14,500 nt of DNA from Clostridium sp. CAG:921. Its GTDB lineage: Bacteria > Bacillota > Clostridia > TANB77 > CAG-465. Shown here piece after piece: positions 2,271 to 13,953 of this stretch. Each line of letters begins with the position of its first letter. Position 1 is the stretch's first letter. Below the pieces are notes generated by a model. That model did no database searches, was not told the origin of the DNA, and saw nothing but the letters and a program-made list of their open reading frames with translations. The stretch spans positions 5,646-20,145 of the forward strand of contig HF991957.1 of the NCBI GenBank assembly GCA_000433135.1, in the 5' to 3' direction. The translations under genes were made by a program, and so were the position numbers.

Positions 2271-4784
2271 CTATAAATATAAACACATCCTTGAGCCGTA
2301 CTCTTCTTTTATGGTAGTTGACTCGTTATCGCCAATTCTACCAGCGTACTTTTCGTTATAATCAGTATATTTATAATATCCTCCCATCAAAGCAACATTT
2401 CCATTAATTTTTTCACATGTATACTCCTCAACATTACCTGCCATATCGTAAATGTTATTTACAGAAACACTTTTTCCAGTTGCTTCTAATTTTTCTGAAA
2501 AGTTTCCTTGTTTTTCAGCATTTATTGGATATTCTCTTATAGAATCATCACTATTTTTTGCAAAATACCTCATTACTGCATACCACTGACTTCCATATAT
2601 CATATTAGACCTTACATTTACACCTGTAAGTGTACTTGCATACTTTTTCTCATTTGCATACCATGTGTACCAATTTTGATTATTAATATCAGTCATATTA
2701 GCTTTTGAAACTACTGAAAGAATAATTGTATTATTATAATTCATCATATTGGCTGTTTCATATCTGCCAATATAAAAGCCATGATATTTGTTCACACTTT
2801 CATATATTGCGTTATATTCATCTTGCATTAATTCTTTTAAATCTTTTGAAGTTGTAAGTTTAGTTCCAAGTATATTATTTATAATATTTAAGTTATCACT
2901 TTTATTATCATTTGTTGTGACAATTGGTTCAGTTCTATTAGTTACTAAAGTTCCATTTATATCACCATATTTTGAATAGTTATATAGTAATCCATTCATA
3001 TTTCCAGTTCCGTCATTTTTAGCAAATAAATTAATTTCATTTTCTGGAACAGGTACCCAAACAAATTCACTTTCATCTGGTGCAATAACCACAAGACCAC
3101 TGCTTATATTTTGTTCATTTTCTTTAACAGATATCTTAAATCCAGTAGGAATTATTGCAGAATTTCCTTGACTATCTACATATTTTTTATTTTCTCCTAA
3201 AACTGTAACGCCAGGCATTGCCATCTCATAATCATCATCTTGTTTTACTTTTATTTTCTTTATAACAGTAGTAGTTTTTGATCTATTATTGTATGTTATT
3301 ACAAGTTTTACATACACATAATCAGATAAATTCAAACTATCAAAGCTAACACTTGATGTCCATACATTTGATGATGTATTAACAAAGTCTACAAACTTTT
3401 CTTCACCATAAATACTGCCATTATCACTTATTTGAACTTTTGCAACGTTTATTTGATGCTTTGTTTTTGCCGTTAAATCAAGAGAAATTTGTGTATTAGC
3501 AACATATTTTTCATAAATACCAGCCCATATCTCAGCGCTTGTATTTTGCAAATTAGTATTTTCAGTCATAAGAAAACTATTACCAGCCTTATCATATACC
3601 ATAATTTCAATTCCCTCAACATCTGTTGGAACTTCTATTTTATATACTCCATCAGATACAAACTTTGCACTTTTTCCTCTACATATCATATAATCAGAAT
3701 TAAATGAAGTTATATCTTTTCCTTCTTTATCTTTATAATATTTTATTATATTACCTGATTTATCAAATTTAGTTAAGTATTCATACTTAACATCCTTTAT
3801 TCCACTTGTGTTATCATTTACATTTATCGTTAATGTATTATATTCCATACCAGGTGTAAATGTCGTTTGAGCTGATTTTATTGGTAAATCTTTTTCATAG
3901 TTTGACATATCTACTTTTAATTTTCCTATGACACTACTTCCTTTTTTCTTTATTACTTCAAAAAATTTATTACTTTGTACTAACTTATCAAAATTACTTA
4001 CCTCTGTATCTGTAATTGATAAATTATACTTAGTACCATTTAAAGTATATGAGTTTAAGTTATCACTAAAGTAAATTGAATTTTGTCCAATAACAGTTGT
4101 AAGCTGCTTTTCAGCTCCTGAGCCTCCAAATTTAATATATAATGTTTCTCCACTTGAAATACTAGCTTCAATCAAGAAAGCAGGTTTATTTGTCCAAGTC
4201 TTCTTTTCCTTTTTCACAGTAATCCCAGAAGCAGTTACAGTACTAGTATTTATATTAGCAATATCTCCTTTGTTTATCTTAGTTACGTTAGATATTTCTT
4301 TTGTAAGAGAAAAGTATGCCTTAGATCTAGCCAAAAGTCCTTTTAAATAATATACATTCATTGAAGGATACGATACAACAAACACATCACTTGTATCTCC
4401 ATTTTCTTCTATTCCTCTACTTACCTTTGTCGCTCCAATTTTTGCTAAGTCAATCTTATAAAATGCACCTAAAGAATCAGACGTTGGCTTATCTTCATTT
4501 TCAATCGTTTCATTTTCAAAAAACGATAAATTTTTACTTTCAACAAGCGATTTTACCTGTGCGTACGATAACGCAATATTTTCTCCAAGAACTGGCAAGT
4601 CATCATTTTCTATATAGTACATCTTGGTCGCATCTTCTACACTTTTTAAGTCCTCTGCAAAAGTTGTAACTTTTGAATTTTCTAAAAGGCTACCAGCTGT
4701 TGCTATTGTGACGCCTGAAATTATTATTATTACAAGTATTGTAAGTACTAATACTATCATAGTAACACCGTTATATTTTTTCAT
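2271..4784 (-). CDS. Pilin-like N-terminus / Ig-like / SUMF-domain surface protein (complete paralogue)
   Basis: 837 residues. I chose the ATG at 4784 because GAGGTGG (4788-4794) lies just upstream; an in-frame TTG at 4796 is part of that ribosome site. Residues 1-6 (MKKYNG) plus a hydrophobic helix at about 8-29 look like a pilin leader cleaved after Gly6, but +5 is Val, not Glu. Residues 35-160 are pilin-like. A beta-rich region follows, with an Ig-like part at about 300-402 ending in DKAGN and a second beta segment to about 515. Residues about 541-837 form a SUMF/formylglycine-generating-enzyme-like domain: EFVWVPVP (573-580), GFYIGRYETA (669-678), NIYDMAGNVEEY (777-788), GSRMCLYL at the end. 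The paired catalytic cysteines of true FGE are absent, so a C-type-lectin-like binding role at the cell surface is more likely than oxidation of sulfatases. It has its own promoter and terminator. Confidence 0.85.
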   Translation of the reverse strand: MKKYNGVTMIVLVLTILVIIIISGVTIATAGSLLENSKVTTFAEDLKSVEDATKMYYIENDDLPVLGENIALSYAQVKSLVESKNLSFFENETIENEDKPTSDSLGAFYKIDLAKIGATKVSRGIEENGDTSDVFVVSYPSMNVYYLKGLLARSKAYFSLTKEISNVTKINKGDIANINTSTVTASGITVKKEKKTWTNKPAFLIEASISSGETLYIKFGGSGAEKQLTTVIGQNSIYFSDNLNSYTLNGTKYNLSITDTEVSNFDKLVQSNKFFEVIKKKGSSVIGKLKVDMSNYEKDLPIKSAQTTFTPGMEYNTLTINVNDNTSGIKDVKYEYLTKFDKSGNIIKYYKDKEGKDITSFNSDYMICRGKSAKFVSDGVYKIEVPTDVEGIEIMVYDKAGNSFLMTENTNLQNTSAEIWAGIYEKYVANTQISLDLTAKTKHQINVAKVQISDNGSIYGEEKFVDFVNTSSNVWTSSVSFDSLNLSDYVYVKLVITYNNRSKTTTVIKKIKVKQDDDYEMAMPGVTVLGENKKYVDSQGNSAIIPTGFKISVKENEQNISSGLVVIAPDESEFVWVPVPENEINLFAKNDGTGNMNGLLYNYSKYGDINGTLVTNRTEPIVTTNDNKSDNLNIINNILGTKLTTSKDLKELMQDEYNAIYESVNKYHGFYIGRYETANMMNYNNTIILSVVSKANMTDINNQNWYTWYANEKKYASTLTGVNVRSNMIYGSQWYAVMRYFAKNSDDSIREYPINAEKQGNFSEKLEATGKSVSVNNIYDMAGNVEEYTCEKINGNVALMGGYYKYTDYNEKYAGRIGDNESTTIKEEYGSRMCLYL

Positions 4785-4831
4785 ATTCCACCTCAATATT
4801 TTACAATTTTTAAAACGTTTTCATACATTTA

Positions 4832-7593: not shown

Positions 7594-7626
7594 AGAGGTA
7601 AACAAAAGATATTGGAGGAAATATAT

Positions 7627-10044
7627 ATGAAAATTAAAGAACTAAAACCTACTGATTTAAAAAACAATCAAAATCAAGACTATTTGGATTTTGAAACTAC
7701 GAAAGATTTAGAACCTTTTAACGGAATAATTGGTCAAGAAAGAGCTTTAAGTGCTATAAAATCTGCTATGCAAATTCCTCAAAAAGGATTTAATTTATAT
7801 GTATCTGGTAGCATTGGTATAGGGAAAACAGCATATGCACTATCTATTGTTAATAACTTAAGTCAAAAGCAAAAAATTCCTAATGATTATTGTTATATAT
7901 ACAATTTTGAAAACCCAAATGAGCCTATTGCAGTATCTTTAGAACCTGGTATGGGATCTGAATTTAAAAGAGATATGAATAGATTTATAAAAAACTTACT
8001 TGACAGATTACAAAAAGACTTGAGTGGTGATATGTATGAAAAAGAGAAAAAAAATATCTTAGACAGATATTCTCGCGCAAAAGAAAATATAATGAAAGAA
8101 TTCGATAAATCCACTTATGAACAAGGATTTAAAGTTAGAAATACAGAGGACGGAATCTATTTTTCACCAGTTCACAATGGTGTTATTTTAAATGAGAAAG
8201 ACTTTAACATATTAGATGAAAAAACAAAGAAATATTTTGAAGAAAAAAGTCCTAAGATTCAAGAACAAACTTTAGAGGTGTTAAAAGAGCTTGATGCACT
8301 TGATAAAAAAGCTGAACAAGTTATCCAAGAGTGGCAGTCAAATTTAACTACATTTGCTGTGACTCAATGTATGAGTGATTTAAAAATAAAGTATAAAAAG
8401 AATTTAAAAATTCAAAACTTTTTATATTCTATTCAAAGTGATGTTGTTAAAAATATTGATTATTTCAAAAGTTATGAAGATAGCATAAAGTCACAAAAAT
8501 CACCATCTTCTATGCAACAAATGATGATGATGCCACAGCTACTTCAAAGGCAACAAAAACCTTGGGACAATTACAAAGTAAATTTATTAGTGGACAATGA
8601 TAAGCTATTTCATGCTCCAGTTATATTGTGTAAAAATCCTAATTATTTTGACTTATTTGGAAAGCTTGAATTTGAAACTGGTCCATCTGGTGCTAAAACA
8701 AGCTATATGATGTTAAAACCAGGTCTTGTTCATAAAGCAAATGGAGGTTATCTAATAGTAAATATACGTGATTTACTAAGTAGCATGCCAACTTGGGAAG
8801 CTTTCAAAAGAGTATTAAGAAATCAAGAGTTATCTATTGACAGCTCACGTGATATAGCACAACCTGTTACTGTTGTATCATTAAAGCCTGAACCAATTCC
8901 TATGAATTTTCAAGTAATATTAATAGGTTCTGAATTGCATTACCAACAACTTTGTCAAATGGACGTAGACTTTAAAAAATTATTTAAGGTAAAAGCTGAT
9001 TTTGATGATTATTATCCAAGAAATAAAGATAATACAACAAAACTTGCTCAATATATTGCTTTTATAGCAAAAAAACATGAATTGCTTGATTTTGACAAAT
9101 CAGCAGTAAAAGAAATAATTGAATTTAGTTCAAGATGCGCTGGCAATCAAAAAAGACTTACGGCTATAAAACAAGACATTGTAGACTTGTGTATTGAATC
9201 AAATTTTGTTGCAAAAACTACTAAAAAGAAATTAATTACTATAACTGAGGTAAAAAAAGCTTTAGAAAGTAAAAAAGATAGATTTTCAAAATATAGAGAT
9301 AATTTAAATGAAATGATTTCAAGTGGAGATATTATGATTTCTACCTCTGGAAAAAAAGTAGGTCAAATAAATGGACTTACAGTAGCTATTACAGGTGATT
9401 ACTCATTTGGTCAACCAGTTAGGATTACAGCTAATACTTTCATAGGAAAAAGTGGAGTTGTAAATATTGAAAGTCAAGTTTCACTAAGTGGAACATCTCA
9501 TTCTAAGGGTGTGTACATACTATCTGCATATATTGGTGAAAAGTATGCACAAGAAGCTCCTCTTTCACTTACAGCTAGTATTTGCTTCGAACAAATATAT
9601 AATGGTATTGATGGTGATAGTGCTTCTTCTACTGAATTATACGCAATATTATCTTCTCTTGCTGGTATACCTATTAATCAAAGCCTAGCTGTTACTGGCT
9701 CTGTTAATCAAAAAGGTGAAATACAGCCTATTGGTGGGGTAACCGATAAAATAGAAGGATTTTATAAAGTGTGTAAAAATAGAGGATTAAATAAAGAAAA
9801 TGGTGTACTTATTCCTGTACAAAATGTTAAAAATTTAACACTTTCTGACGAAATTATAGAATCAGTTAGAAATGGTGATTTTCACATATACCCTGTATCT
9901 ACAATAGACGAAGGAATAGAAATATTAACTGGCGTATATGCAGGTAATTTAACAGAAGATGGTACATATGAAAGAGGTAGTATAAATTATCTAGTTTCTA
10001 AAAAATTAAATGATTATGCAATAAAAAGTAAAAACTTTAATTAA
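7627..10044 (+). CDS. Lon-family AAA+ protease (AAA_32 / LonB-like)
   Basis: 805 residues; an ATP-dependent serine protease with a Ser-Lys dyad that degrades unfolded or regulatory proteins. The ATG at 7627 lies 8 bases after GGAGG (7614-7618); the in-frame TTG at 7612 is part of that site. Walker A is GSIGIGKT (61-68). A long helical, charged insert (about 115-300) is typical of the AAA_32 type, and a Q/M-rich stretch (QQMMMMPQLLQRQQ) follows. The Walker-B-like region is GGYLIVNIRDLL (373-384). In the C-terminal Lon protease domain the catalytic Ser is S665 (GDSAS) and the Lys is K708 (IGGVTDK), 43 residues apart as in classical Lon. There is no N-terminal LAN substrate domain, so this is not housekeeping LonA. 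I see no transmembrane hairpin like that of archaeal LonB. It is a single-gene unit; the substrate is unknown. Confidence 0.93.
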   Translation: MKIKELKPTDLKNNQNQDYLDFETTKDLEPFNGIIGQERALSAIKSAMQIPQKGFNLYVSGSIGIGKTAYALSIVNNLSQKQKIPNDYCYIYNFENPNEPIAVSLEPGMGSEFKRDMNRFIKNLLDRLQKDLSGDMYEKEKKNILDRYSRAKENIMKEFDKSTYEQGFKVRNTEDGIYFSPVHNGVILNEKDFNILDEKTKKYFEEKSPKIQEQTLEVLKELDALDKKAEQVIQEWQSNLTTFAVTQCMSDLKIKYKKNLKIQNFLYSIQSDVVKNIDYFKSYEDSIKSQKSPSSMQQMMMMPQLLQRQQKPWDNYKVNLLVDNDKLFHAPVILCKNPNYFDLFGKLEFETGPSGAKTSYMMLKPGLVHKANGGYLIVNIRDLLSSMPTWEAFKRVLRNQELSIDSSRDIAQPVTVVSLKPEPIPMNFQVILIGSELHYQQLCQMDVDFKKLFKVKADFDDYYPRNKDNTTKLAQYIAFIAKKHELLDFDKSAVKEIIEFSSRCAGNQKRLTAIKQDIVDLCIESNFVAKTTKKKLITITEVKKALESKKDRFSKYRDNLNEMISSGDIMISTSGKKVGQINGLTVAITGDYSFGQPVRITANTFIGKSGVVNIESQVSLSGTSHSKGVYILSAYIGEKYAQEAPLSLTASICFEQIYNGIDGDSASSTELYAILSSLAGIPINQSLAVTGSVNQKGEIQPIGGVTDKIEGFYKVCKNRGLNKENGVLIPVQNVKNLTLSDEIIESVRNGDFHIYPVSTIDEGIEILTGVYAGNLTEDGTYERGSINYLVSKKLNDYAIKSKNFN

Positions 10045-10063
10045 ATTATTAAATTATTATAAA

Positions 10064-10123
10064 ATGCTTACGACAATAAAGATTGTTACTTTAACTGTAA
10101 CTTTAAACATATGTCGTAAGCAT
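10064..10123. terminator. Long-loop hairpin between convergent Lon-like gene and murE
   Basis: A perfect 12-bp inverted repeat (ATGCTTACGACA at 10064-10075; TGTCGTAAGCAT at 10112-10123) encloses 36 bases that contain a second small stem (GTTAC 10085-10089, GTAAC 10097-10101). It lies between two convergent genes, 19 bases past one stop and 21 past the other. The T-tracts are only moderate on both sides. A two-way terminator is most likely. Confidence 0.6.
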
Positions 10124-10144
10124 ATTTTATATAAATAGTAAAAG

Positions 10145-11709
10145 TTAATTATTATTTTCATAATTTTTTATACAATTAATTATATTCTCACTATCACCTG
10201 TATATTTTTTGTATCCACTTCCAACTTTTTGAGTATGCTCATTACCCTTTCCAAGAATCAAAATTATATATTTTTCATCTTTTAAAATAGCTTTATGCAC
10301 AGCCTTTTTTATAGCTAAATCTCTATCTTCAACTATTTCATAATTTTTAGTATTCTTTGAAACATACTTTTCAATTTCACTACATATTCCTAGCACTGAT
10401 TCATACGCCGGATCATCTTCTGTTAAAAATATATAGTCTGAATTAATTGATGCTACCTCTCCTAAGTCTTTTCTTCTTATTTGAGCTTTATTTCCAGGGC
10501 AACCAAAAATTGATATTATTTTTCTATCTGGATATTCCTTTTTTGTAGTTTCAAATATTTTTTCAAAACTTAATTTATTATGTGCATAATCAACAATTGC
10601 TAAAATTTTTTTATCTGATGAGCTATATATTTCCATTCTTCCTTCTGATTTTGCCTTCTTCAGTCCTGAAATTATATAATTTGTTGGAATTTTTAAGAAT
10701 TTAGCTATTGCAATTGCTGCCAAGGCATTTTCAACATTAAATAATCCCGGTATTGTAAGCATTACACTAAATTTTTCTTTTTCACTGTATTCATTATCAC
10801 TATATACTACATCAAATTCAGTAAAGAGTCCATTTTTATGAATATTTGTTGCGTAAACATTAGCAGTATTATCCTTAGTTGAAAAAGTGTGAATTTCACA
10901 TTTATTTTTATTTGCAACATTTAAAGCTCTAGGTGCAAAGTCCATATCTAAATTGATACAAGTTTTTATTGACTTTTTGAATATTTCAAGTTTTGAAGTA
11001 AAATAATCTTCAAAATCAGGATGCTCTACTGGGCTTATATGATCCTCTGAAATGTTCAAAAACGCTGAAATTTCAAAATTAACATCATTTACTCTAGCAT
11101 ATTTTAATGCTTGAGATGATACTTCCATTACAACATTTTCTATTCCAGTGTCATTTATATTATATAAATTTCTTTGAAGATCAAGTGATTCTGGTGTTGT
11201 AAGTTTTGACTTATAATAATTTTTACCATCGTATGTATAAATAGATGAAATTATAGCATTTTCTTTTTTATTATTTGATAATGAATATTCATCTAAAATA
11301 TATTTTACAAAGTATGATGTAGTTGATTTTCCTTTTGTCCCAGTTATTCCAATAACATTTAATTTATTCCAATAACATTTAATTTAGTAGCAGGATTATC
11401 AAAAAATTTTGCACTAAGCACTGATAAGGCTAACCTTATATCAGTAACAATTATTCCAGGAATACAAGTATCATATTTTTTATCTGATATGTATATAAAA
11501 CTCCCAGAATCAATGGCATCTAGTAAATATTCAATCTTAAATGTAGCTCCCTTACATATAAACATTGTACTTTTTTTTATATCTTTTGAATTATATGATA
11601 TATACTCTACATTTTCATTTAAAATTTCTTCTATATTATTATCAATAAATTTTATAAGATTTTGTCCTTTTAACAAATCTATATATTCTTTTAATTTAAA
11701 AAATTTCAT
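10145..11709 (-). pseudogene. murE: MurE-type UDP-MurNAc-peptide ligase, frameshifted by a 20-base tandem duplication
   Basis: MurE adds the third amino acid to UDP-MurNAc-dipeptide in peptidoglycan synthesis. The 5' part (11359-11709, 116 codons) encodes the MurE N-domain and stops at TAA 11359-11361. The frame resumes through the rest of the protein to 10145. Deleting one copy of the duplication at 11344-11386 gives 514 continuous residues: N-domain, ATP loop GTKGKST (117-123), TTPESLD, MEVSSQAL, IVDYAHN, GCPGNK and the C-terminal GKGNE. The start ATG (11709) has GAGGTG 6 bases upstream and an intact promoter, so decay is recent or the break is an artefact. Where meso-diaminopimelate MurE has DNPR, this has DDPAY, and GKGHE is GKGNE, so it belongs to a variant clade; the amino acid added is not predictable from this. 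No internal ATG, GTG or TTG would give a functional downstream product, and I see no slippery heptamer in the frame overlap. Confidence 0.88.
11344..11386. repeat. Exact 20-base tandem duplication inside murE
   Basis: The 20-base unit TTATTCCAATAACATTTAAT occurs at 11344-11363 and again at 11364-11383, and three more bases (TTA) continue the period. 20 is not a multiple of 3, so the second copy shifts the murE frame. The single-copy state would encode LNVIGIT directly before the GTKGKST loop. Confidence 0.97.
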
Positions 11710-11768
11710 TTATAACACCTCATAATTTAAAAAATCTAATAGTAATTAAAACTCAAAATCACATACTA

Positions 11769-11797
11769 ATTATACTATTAATATATTATTTTTGCAA
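11769..11797 (-). promoter_or_regulatory. Sigma-A type promoter for murE
   Basis: On the minus strand, TTGCAA (11792-11797) and a perfect TATAAT (11769-11774) have a 17-base spacer, about 60 bases upstream of the murE start. The rest of the gap 11710-11927 is AT-rich and I see nothing else in it. Confidence 0.65.
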
Positions 11798-11927
11798 TAA
11801 AATTAAAAATATAAAAAACTATAAATATTTAATAAAAAATTAAATTAATTTCATTGTCTTAATACAAGTTATTGTATTATTTATTACTATAATACTAAAT
11901 AATAAAAATAGTGTATTCTTATATAAA

Positions 11928-11962
11928 AAAGCATAGGGGTACTTATTTTCTCCCTATGCTTT
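11928..11962 (-). terminator. Rho-independent terminator of the PHP-domain gene
   Basis: A perfect 11-bp stem (AAAGCATAGGG 11928-11938; CCCTATGCTTT 11952-11962) with a 13-base loop begins 3 bases past the PHP stop codon. On the minus strand it is followed by T residues (complement of 11925-11930). It insulates murE from this gene. Confidence 0.85.
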
Positions 11963-11965
11963 CAT

Positions 11966-12841
11966 TTAATTTTTTTTAGCACGATTTTTTAAGTTTTCTA
12001 TTATATTAGTATCGGTTATATTTAAATTATTACCTATCCCCTTTCCTATTTCAAGTCCTTTTGGTTCTCTTGTTAAAATTCCATGATAATCTGTTCCAAC
12101 AGTAGGTATCAAATCAAATTTATCACAAATTTTTAGATATTCTTCCCTTCTTTCCTCATCATTATACGGAGTATATACCTCTATTCCATCAAGACCTGCT
12201 TCTGCTAAACTTCCAAAGAACCCTTCTTCACTACTCTTTGCAATTCTTAAACTTTTAGGATGTGCAACTACTATAGATCCGCCAACAGATTTTACATACT
12301 TTACTAATTCGATAGGTGTTTTTTTATGCCTTGAAACATAACACTTTGAATTAAAATCAAGATATTCACCATATGCCGTTATAGGATCAGATGAAAAACC
12401 AAGCTTATAGAGTGCTATTGCAACATCAAATCTAGTTACGTGTTCTTTATTTCTTGCTAAATCTTTAACTTGTGAATATGTAATGCTTATTTTTTGACCC
12501 CGATTTAATAATTCCAGTATTTTTTTTATGGATTTTTCACGGTTTTCTTCATATTCATCAAGCATTATACAAATTTTTTGACTTGGATAATAAACAATCA
12601 TATGACAGCTATGATTTTTGTTTAATCCATATCCTGAAATGTCAGTGCCTATTTCTATTGCTGGAATAATTTCTATTTTATCACCTGCAAGTCTTCTTGC
12701 AACATTATATGAAGCCAAATTATAATGCTCTGCAAATGCCAGATAACCGACATTATTTTTTAGTGCAATGCCAATTATCTCTTCAATTGATTTTTTACCA
12801 TCTGAAAAAAGACTATGTACATGTAAATCAATAGTTTTCAT
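11966..12841 (-). CDS. PHP-domain metal-dependent phosphoesterase (TrpH/YciV-like)
   Basis: 291 residues. The ATG at 12841 has AAGGAGG (12850-12856) 8 bases upstream and yields MKTIDLHVHS, the standard start; the frame stays open to 12901, but that part overlaps the promoter. The metal-binding residues of the PHP fold are all visible: HVHSLFSDG (H7, H9, D14), AEHYN (E38, H39), EIGTDISG (E63), H80, HVTRFD (H134), VVAHPKS (H194) and GTDYHG (D251, H253). Relatives of this length hydrolyse phosphate esters such as 3',5'-nucleoside bisphosphates or 5' ends of short RNAs; the exact substrate cannot be read from the sequence. It is a cytoplasmic single-gene unit with its own promoter and terminator, divergent from the membrane ferredoxin gene. 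It is not the PHP domain of a DNA polymerase and not a histidinol phosphatase by motif layout. Confidence 0.9.
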   Translation of the reverse strand: MKTIDLHVHSLFSDGKKSIEEIIGIALKNNVGYLAFAEHYNLASYNVARRLAGDKIEIIPAIEIGTDISGYGLNKNHSCHMIVYYPSQKICIMLDEYEENREKSIKKILELLNRGQKISITYSQVKDLARNKEHVTRFDVAIALYKLGFSSDPITAYGEYLDFNSKCYVSRHKKTPIELVKYVKSVGGSIVVAHPKSLRIAKSSEEGFFGSLAEAGLDGIEVYTPYNDEERREEYLKICDKFDLIPTVGTDYHGILTREPKGLEIGKGIGNNLNITDTNIIENLKNRAKKN

Positions 12842-13116: not shown

Positions 13117-13953
13117 ATGTTAAAATGGATAAAGAACAATTTTGTTCCAATTATTATTTTAATAATGTTTGAGACTATTGCTATACTACTTACATACTTT
13201 ACTAAAAAGATTTTTTACCTTTTCAATTTTTCATATATTGGAATTTGTCTATTTATAGGAATCTGTTTATATTCACATAAAGTTCATTATGCCAGAAATG
13301 TTGTTCAATTTTTAGTTGGAACGTATATGCTACTATATTTAGGTATTATTTCCAAAGAAAACATGCAACTAGAAGGCTTTTGGTATTATTTATTTTTAGG
13401 ACTATTTGAGGCTGCAGTGATACACTATCTTGTTGCAAAAATTTGTGGGCCACTATTTTTTGGAAGAGGCTGGTGCGGATACGCTTGCTGGACTGGCATG
13501 ATACTTGATTTACTACCATATAAAATTCCACAAAGTAAGAGAAAAAATATTGGATTTATACGATATATAATGTTCTTCATTTCACTACTTTATGTAATAT
13601 TACTATTTTCACTTAACTTAAGTAATCTAGACACAGTAATGTTTTATAGCTTCATCATTGGTAACATTATATACTATATAATAGGAATTATATTTGCATT
13701 TTTGTTTAAAGATAATAGAGCCTTTTGCAAATATTTTTGTCCGATAACTGTATTTTTAAAACCAGCCAGTTATTTTTCAAGACTCAGAATAAAATGTGAA
13801 AGTGACAAGTGTATTAAATGTAATAAATGTATAAAATCTTGTCCTATGAATGTTGATATGACTAATAATTCGAGAAAAAGGAAAAATGGAACAGAATGTA
13901 TTTTATGCCTTAATTGTATCAATAATTGTCCTAAAAAAGCCTTACATTTATAA
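13117..13953 (+). CDS. NapH-like membrane-bound 4Fe-4S ferredoxin
   Basis: 278 residues; an integral membrane iron-sulfur protein of the NapH/Fer4_5 type, expected to move electrons between the membrane and a partner. The ATG at 13117 follows AAGGAGGT (13102-13109). About five hydrophobic helices are visible (about 9-28, 36-52, 62-78, 88-107, 148-166, with more at 173-197). Two CxxxC motifs typical of the family are present: GRGWCGYAC (C120, C124) and FCKYFCP (C204, C208). The C-terminal tail has two four-cysteine clusters: C232, C235, C238, C242 and C261, C264, C267, C271, each ending in CP, so two [4Fe-4S] centres are predicted. In NapH the tail faces the cytoplasm. No nap, rnf or other redox partner lies in the window, so the electron donor and acceptor are unknown. 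It is first in its transcription unit. Confidence 0.9.
   Translation: MLKWIKNNFVPIIILIMFETIAILLTYFTKKIFYLFNFSYIGICLFIGICLYSHKVHYARNVVQFLVGTYMLLYLGIISKENMQLEGFWYYLFLGLFEAAVIHYLVAKICGPLFFGRGWCGYACWTGMILDLLPYKIPQSKRKNIGFIRYIMFFISLLYVILLFSLNLSNLDTVMFYSFIIGNIIYYIIGIIFAFLFKDNRAFCKYFCPITVFLKPASYFSRLRIKCESDKCIKCNKCIKSCPMNVDMTNNSRKRKNGTECILCLNCINNCPKKALHL

Follow-up and report, generated by a model that had tools for sequence, protein, structure and literature searches.

How can a bacterium carry a murE-family gene that is cut just ahead of its ATP-binding loop, when the wall enzyme MurE is normally essential? The question is raised by 14,500 nucleotides of contig HF991957.1 from Clostridium sp. CAG:921, referred to here as the window (the whole stretch of DNA that was analysed). 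Caution is needed from the start, as reading the cut gene as "the" murE would imply a bacterium without an essential wall enzyme. The first-pass annotation had described an essential murE, split by a 20-base tandem duplication that might act as a reversible switch. A murE-family gene split by such a duplication is indeed what the window holds, yet neither the essentiality nor the switch found support in the comparisons below. Judged from its sequence and that of its relatives, the broken gene appears to be an accessory paralogue (hereafter MurE-A), distinct from the canonical murE that belongs to the division/cell-wall (dcw) cluster, and there seems to be no paradox but a commonplace frameshift of recent origin, or else a slip in the assembly. 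The features of the locus, in window positions, are as follows.

11344–11363 and 11364–11383, plus three more matching bases, no strand: exact tandem duplication (TRF matches 100%; run 23)
11359–11709, minus strand: N-terminal piece of the MurE-A gene, an ORF of 116 codons from the ATG at 11709 to the TAA at 11359–11361
10145–11383, minus strand: downstream piece in another frame, stop to stop, containing the P-loop GTKGKST and the later MurE regions
11716–11721, minus strand: Shine-Dalgarno-like GAGGTG, 6 bases ahead of the ATG, read by eye
7612–10044, plus strand: Lon-like protease of the LonB/LonC type, the convergent neighbour (AAA_32, LonB LID, LonC_helical and Lon_C matches)

The two perfect 20-base copies seen at first pass are exact. 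TRF gives positions 11344–11386 as an array of period 20 and 2.2 copies with 100% matches and 0 indels, the best-scoring of its 21 rows, and the same array is the sole exact tandem repeat in the window in our own scan (period 7–200, run of at least 15 and at least one period). The duplication exceeds chance: against the observed run of 23, the maximum among 100 dinucleotide shuffles of the window was 16, and a full tandem pair of at least 20 was seen in none of the 100. In 1.40 Mb of related loci (period 10–150, run of at least 18; loci L081–L100 and L110 onward left out) exact two-copy arrays occur 4 times, including an adjacent pair in L066; their periods are 14, 22, 24 and 28, and their density is roughly 1 per 350 kb. 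Two-copy arrays are thus uncommon in such loci, yet neither unheard of nor extraordinary. A footprint of mobile element excision with a 20-base target duplication was also considered and rejected, as the units abut directly and no other trace of an element was seen by eye.

The effect on the gene is a broken reading frame, and the stop at TAA 11359–11361 after 116 codons agrees with the ORF calls. The peptide KLNVIGI is encoded in both frames of the window and once in P0001, an intact near-twin described below, as expected from a duplication. The earliest ATG, GTG or TTG of the downstream frame lies at 11128, beyond the P-loop, so no ordinary start yields an ATP-binding fragment. In profile searches the N-terminal piece gave partial MurE family matches, and the downstream piece from 11128 matched Mur_ligase_M from profile position 62 and Mur_ligase_C completely; taken apart, the two pieces score 44.1 and 209.2 against TIGR01085, each below the cut-off of 257.3. 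It had also been claimed that promoter, ribosome site and both halves are intact. The GAGGTG motif, read by eye, and the absence of any second lesion seen in the gene besides the duplication agree with this, whereas the promoter claim is weak: the 10/12 match at 11797–11769, upstream of MurE-A, is one promoter-like site in a region (10000–12000) where 23 were found against 20.0 ± 3.7 expected.

Perhaps one protein is still made across the array by translational frameshifting or transcriptional slippage. The two frames overlap over the duplicated stretch, so that a shift within the array would join them, and slippage that bypasses frame-shifting indels is described in the available part of PMC3812077. 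Yet the downstream frame has no ATG, GTG or TTG ahead of the P-loop, no clear slippery heptamer was seen by eye, and such a layout is found in none of the listed homologues, all of which makes this an extremely improbable explanation.

A protein search with the downstream piece found P0001, an intact protein of 514 residues (source ENA; longest contig 7,283 bases), whose cluster has 47 member sequences, full-length status being given for P0001 alone. The upstream piece is identical to its residues 1–115 at 114 of 115 positions (99%), and the downstream piece, from 11128, to residues 188–514 at 317 of 327 (97%), both ungapped; in the tree the C-terminal window piece adjoins P0001 at a distance of 0.033. 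P0001 is the one known 97% relative of the window gene, and it is known as a protein. The first-pass annotation had also proposed a comparison with the same locus in relatives. A window-type gene was present in 101 loci, and all but L025, which a contig end truncates, were compared from 60 bases before to 40 bases after the start of the P-loop codons: 0 of these 100 loci carry an array. At least three genes occur twice among the 100, their genomes having been found in two ways (L001/L082, L002/L087 and L008/L090). The longest near-tandem run at this site in the 100 loci is 9, versus 23 in the window. Likewise, of the 120 homologues listed, 119 have a P-loop (P0022 is a fragment that lacks it), and in 0 of these 119 do the six residues preceding the P-loop recur upstream. 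With P0001 intact and 100 of 100 loci free of the array, the one-unit state is ancestral on these sequences, and the two-unit state is, as far as seen, private to this record. The window gene thus has the form of a frameshift pseudogene, namely a frame-breaking lesion in a gene that is intact in near relatives.

The same comparison bears on the proposal of a contingency locus, in which the duplication would have evolved to turn MurE-A on and off reversibly. Perfect tandem duplications within genes can revert by slippage, as the available part of PMC4022640 indicates; it describes capsule loss by tandem duplication within wchA and counts the tandem repeat among potentially reverting changes. 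Works cited there (Waite et al. 2001, 2003) bear titles on phase variation and concern the type 3 capsule locus, cap8E and tts. As far as these sources extend, the pneumococcal capsule genes, with their spontaneous duplications, resemble MurE-A in that a tandem duplication within a single reading frame inactivates the gene and is in principle revertible by slippage. They differ in that the capsule cases are titled phase variation, whereas MurE-A is another gene and is known from one sequence record. In the main text of the review PMC11868660, "duplication" and "tandem repeat" are absent. Exact duplications are revertible in principle, so reversibility alone proves nothing. A slipped-strand phase-variable locus should be marked by a repeat tract that is conserved at its site or arises there again, and neither the 100 related loci nor the residues of the 119 homologues repeat there; moreover, the window has two units only and not a many-copy array. 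The same truncated N-terminal piece was not found as a protein elsewhere (0 of 18 candidates at E ≤ 0.001), a weak point, as the database searched missed even the window's own piece. The switch thus finds no support in the relatives and seems to us quite improbable. Its extension to cell-wall phase variation, in which some cells of a population would turn an accessory MurE on and off through the reversible duplication and thereby change the composition of a minor peptide pool, in the cell wall or otherwise linked to UDP-MurNAc, would be more improbable still.

That this gene should be the essential MurE finds no support in its place, its motif and its models, nor in its patchy occurrence in relatives. 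A dcw location is not what the window shows, the neighbours of the gene being the Lon-like protease and a PHP-domain gene. In DNA identity to the window, lonC of the genomes G025 (80%), G001 (79%) and G027 (78%) is the nearest among 36 family genomes, and in all three it is convergent with a window-type gene at most 1.1 kb away, as in the window. The presence of lonC beside MurE-A on the same contigs identifies the locus as orthologous in these nearest relatives. In G001 this orthologue lies on contig 12, and a second full-length MurE, of 38% identity, lies on contig 6. The latter carries the motif DNPR of canonical MurE and is found between a SpoVD-like PBP and mraY, with ftsW, murG, rsmH and mraZ; all of these dcw genes except the PBP score above a curated cut-off, and the DNPR MurE itself reaches 563 against a cut-off of 373 with the DAP-ligase model NF001126. 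By eye, G025 and G027 have the same dcw order as G001 from rsmH to murG. Not all of the 21 DNPR genes compared below lie in a dcw cluster; in some other Clostridia, such as L012, the DNPR gene is found directly 3′ of the window-type gene. A passage of PMC4015370 gives meso-diaminopimelic acid as a component of the wall peptide in Clostridia, as would be expected if the DNPR gene encodes the main enzyme.

Where canonical MurE has DNPR, both P0001 and the window piece read DDPA. The motif DNPR is found in 21 of 21 rows of the 27–37% identity class (canonical type) and in no window-type row; the latter have mainly DDPA, DDPG, EDPG, EDSG or EDAG, with EDPR in L004 alone. In the tree, window-type and canonical-type proteins form two separate clades with support 1.0 (n=115 rows: 96 window-type, 17 DNPR-type, P0001 and the C-terminal window piece; rows with fewer than 380 aligned residues were dropped). 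P0001 scores 322.7 bits against TIGR01085, above the curated cut-off of 257.3, which places it in the MurE subfamily, and among the families shown it reaches no equivalog cut-off for a DAP or Lys ligase. Hence, the window type is like the canonical dcw MurE (the DAP-adding UDP-MurNAc-tripeptide synthetase) in having Mur_ligase_M, Mur_ligase_C, the P-loop and TIGR01085, and unlike it in lying outside the dcw cluster, in having mostly [DE]D-[PSA]-[AG] for DNPR, in its separate clade and in the failure of P0001 at the equivalog cut-offs. P0001 also matches the Lys-adding MurE structures PDB 4c12 ("L-lysine ligase") and 4bub ("LD-lysine ligase"), which we take to be from S. aureus and T. maritima, with 103 and 146 bits, and it shares with the 4bub stretch shown the reading DDP instead of DNP. 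Yet it differs from the L-lysine ligases in falling below the cut-off of NF010628 (348.5 versus 536 bits).

The distribution of the two types points in the same direction. Each place was classed by hand, among the matches listed, by its higher-scoring query (P0001 or the G001 DNPR MurE); the matches listed for both queries reach down past the scores on which the classing depends. A window-type gene was found in 43 of 95 related genomes and not found in 52, while the DNPR type is present in one frame in 88 of the 95, in two pieces in 2 (G037 and G080) and was not found in 5 (G002, G011, G019, G026 and G086). Among the 43 genomes with MurE-A, 38 have the DNPR type in one frame, including the nearest relatives G025, G001 and G027, one has it in two pieces (G037) and in 4 (G002, G011, G019 and G026) it was not found. 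Absences are soft in both directions, for MurE-A and the DNPR type alike, as the completeness of the assemblies is not given. The pattern says that the DNPR-type gene is near-universal and that the window-type gene comes and goes, at least in these sequences, and MurE-A is probably dispensable. Moreover, the window-type gene of G007 (L106:2000-3554) is broken too, in its case elsewhere in the gene, by a small indel around query residues 344–351 with no tandem array, and G036 has the window-type gene as partial pieces only. As a separate observation, G035 carries the window-type MurE gene twice at full length, with 47 and 46% identity to P0001, plus a DNPR-type gene.

If MurE-A were the only MurE of the organism, the lesion would hit an essential step. 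The 4 genomes with MurE-A and no detected canonical type could suggest this, as could a search with P0001 alone, in which a second full-length MurE was found in 4 of 6 genomes and not in G002 and G006, the latter giving a single match. However, the 4 exceptions are assemblies of 1.1–1.5 Mb, completeness not given, so either they are incomplete or MurE-A is their only MurE, and the 38 genomes with both types include those nearest by lonC DNA. That the lesion strikes an only MurE is in our view very improbable. In most relatives that have MurE-A a second MurE-type gene is present as well, and of the two it is the accessory one that the lesion affects. Among the ways out offered at first pass, the existence of another murE is thus the one favoured by the relatives.

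Is the second unit real? An intact near-twin at 97–99% identity, together with the lack of any other lesion, means that the lesion is very young, a minority allele or not real, and the good conservation of both halves makes a long-standing pseudogene unlikely. The duplication may be an artefact of assembly or sequencing, such as an unmerged contig-end overlap of about 20 bases, gap filling or a read error, in which case the gene would be intact in the cell. This explanation fits both the existence of P0001 and the conservation of the gene, in which no lesion but the duplication is seen. In addition, with the small k-mer of 21 in common use, k-1 is 20 bases, the length of such an overlap, and ftsW of G027 (L109:4380-5520), a normally essential gene, is found by eye in two overlapping frames, likely through an assembly or base-calling error, so split essential genes do occur in such records. 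Yet a 43-base array fits within an ordinary read, and graph assemblers collapse repeats more often than they add them. The ORFs of the window, inspected by eye, gave no sign of a second broken gene, and the arrays of the related loci, with their different periods, reflect no single k-mer length. An artefact is unlikely on balance, though it is the alternative to be taken most seriously.

We regard it as probable, with some reserve, that the lesion is a true one, a recent slippage duplication that inactivates the accessory MurE paralogue. A single recent 20-base tandem duplication, most simply produced by replication slippage, would have arisen just ahead of the P-loop of MurE-A in this uncultured clostridial bacterium and would be a true allele of the strain. 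In the sequence as given, the frame shift ends translation after codon 116, so no MurE-A with an ATP loop would be made from an ordinary start. We infer that the same cell has its own canonical murE elsewhere, as most of its relatives do, and that the loss of MurE-A would be tolerated.

What deserves biochemical study here is the accessory family to which MurE-A belongs: its specificity motif is altered and, in other Clostridia, it is linked to a racemase, an ArgB-like kinase and an ATP-grasp-like protein. Partners were counted in 80 loci (L001–L080), adjacent genes being those on the same strand within 1,500 bases; loci cut by contig ends were included, so the counts are lower bounds. An Asp/Glu-type racemase is adjacent to or fused with the window-type MurE in at least 55 of the 80, and an ATP-grasp-like protein (named by eye, with no NCBIfam match at the limit used) is adjacent in at least 53, L004:8162-9334 being a further example of such a racemase/ATP-grasp-like neighbourhood. 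An amino acid kinase is fused at the C-terminus in at least 44 of the 80 loci (e.g. L015:9440-11806 and L019:686-3118), and a DNPR murE is adjacent in at least 13. One ORF, L010:8130-11644, consists of MurE fused to an Asp/Glu racemase. As single examples, the racemase of L012 (L012:8702-9403) passes the cysteate racemase model (209.8 versus 190) and the kinase part of L015, the one fusion scored, passes the ArgB model (239.6 versus 151.3). These partners look like a cassette for an unusual amino acid, and their sequences hint that the family may ligate an unusual acidic amino acid.

The window gene may not share that role. None of the four partners was found in 8 of the 80 loci, and none in L001, L002 and L008, the nearest of the 80 to the window. 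An ATP-grasp-like partner was likewise not found in 8 genomes of the lineage of the window, which shows little, as there was no positive control among them. Titles and abstract openings of the papers listed gave no description of a MurE-amino acid kinase fusion and none of a second MurE of this kind in Clostridia. An asparagine synthase gene was also seen next door to the fused ORF of L010.

As for the rest of the window, no Rfam family at the gathering cut-off and no tRNA were found in it, and a plasmid search gave 72 records, every one below 60% identity. An imperfect array of period 18, with 2.7 copies and 77% matches, lies at 13225–13272 in a NapH-like ferredoxin gene starting at 13117. 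Finally, two long neighbouring proteins on the minus strand (2–2083 and 2271–4796), without a Pfam match at E 0.001, have by eye a pilin-like hydrophobic N-terminus; they resemble, by eye, each other and a gene that G001 has close to its dcw cluster (L101:232-1761).
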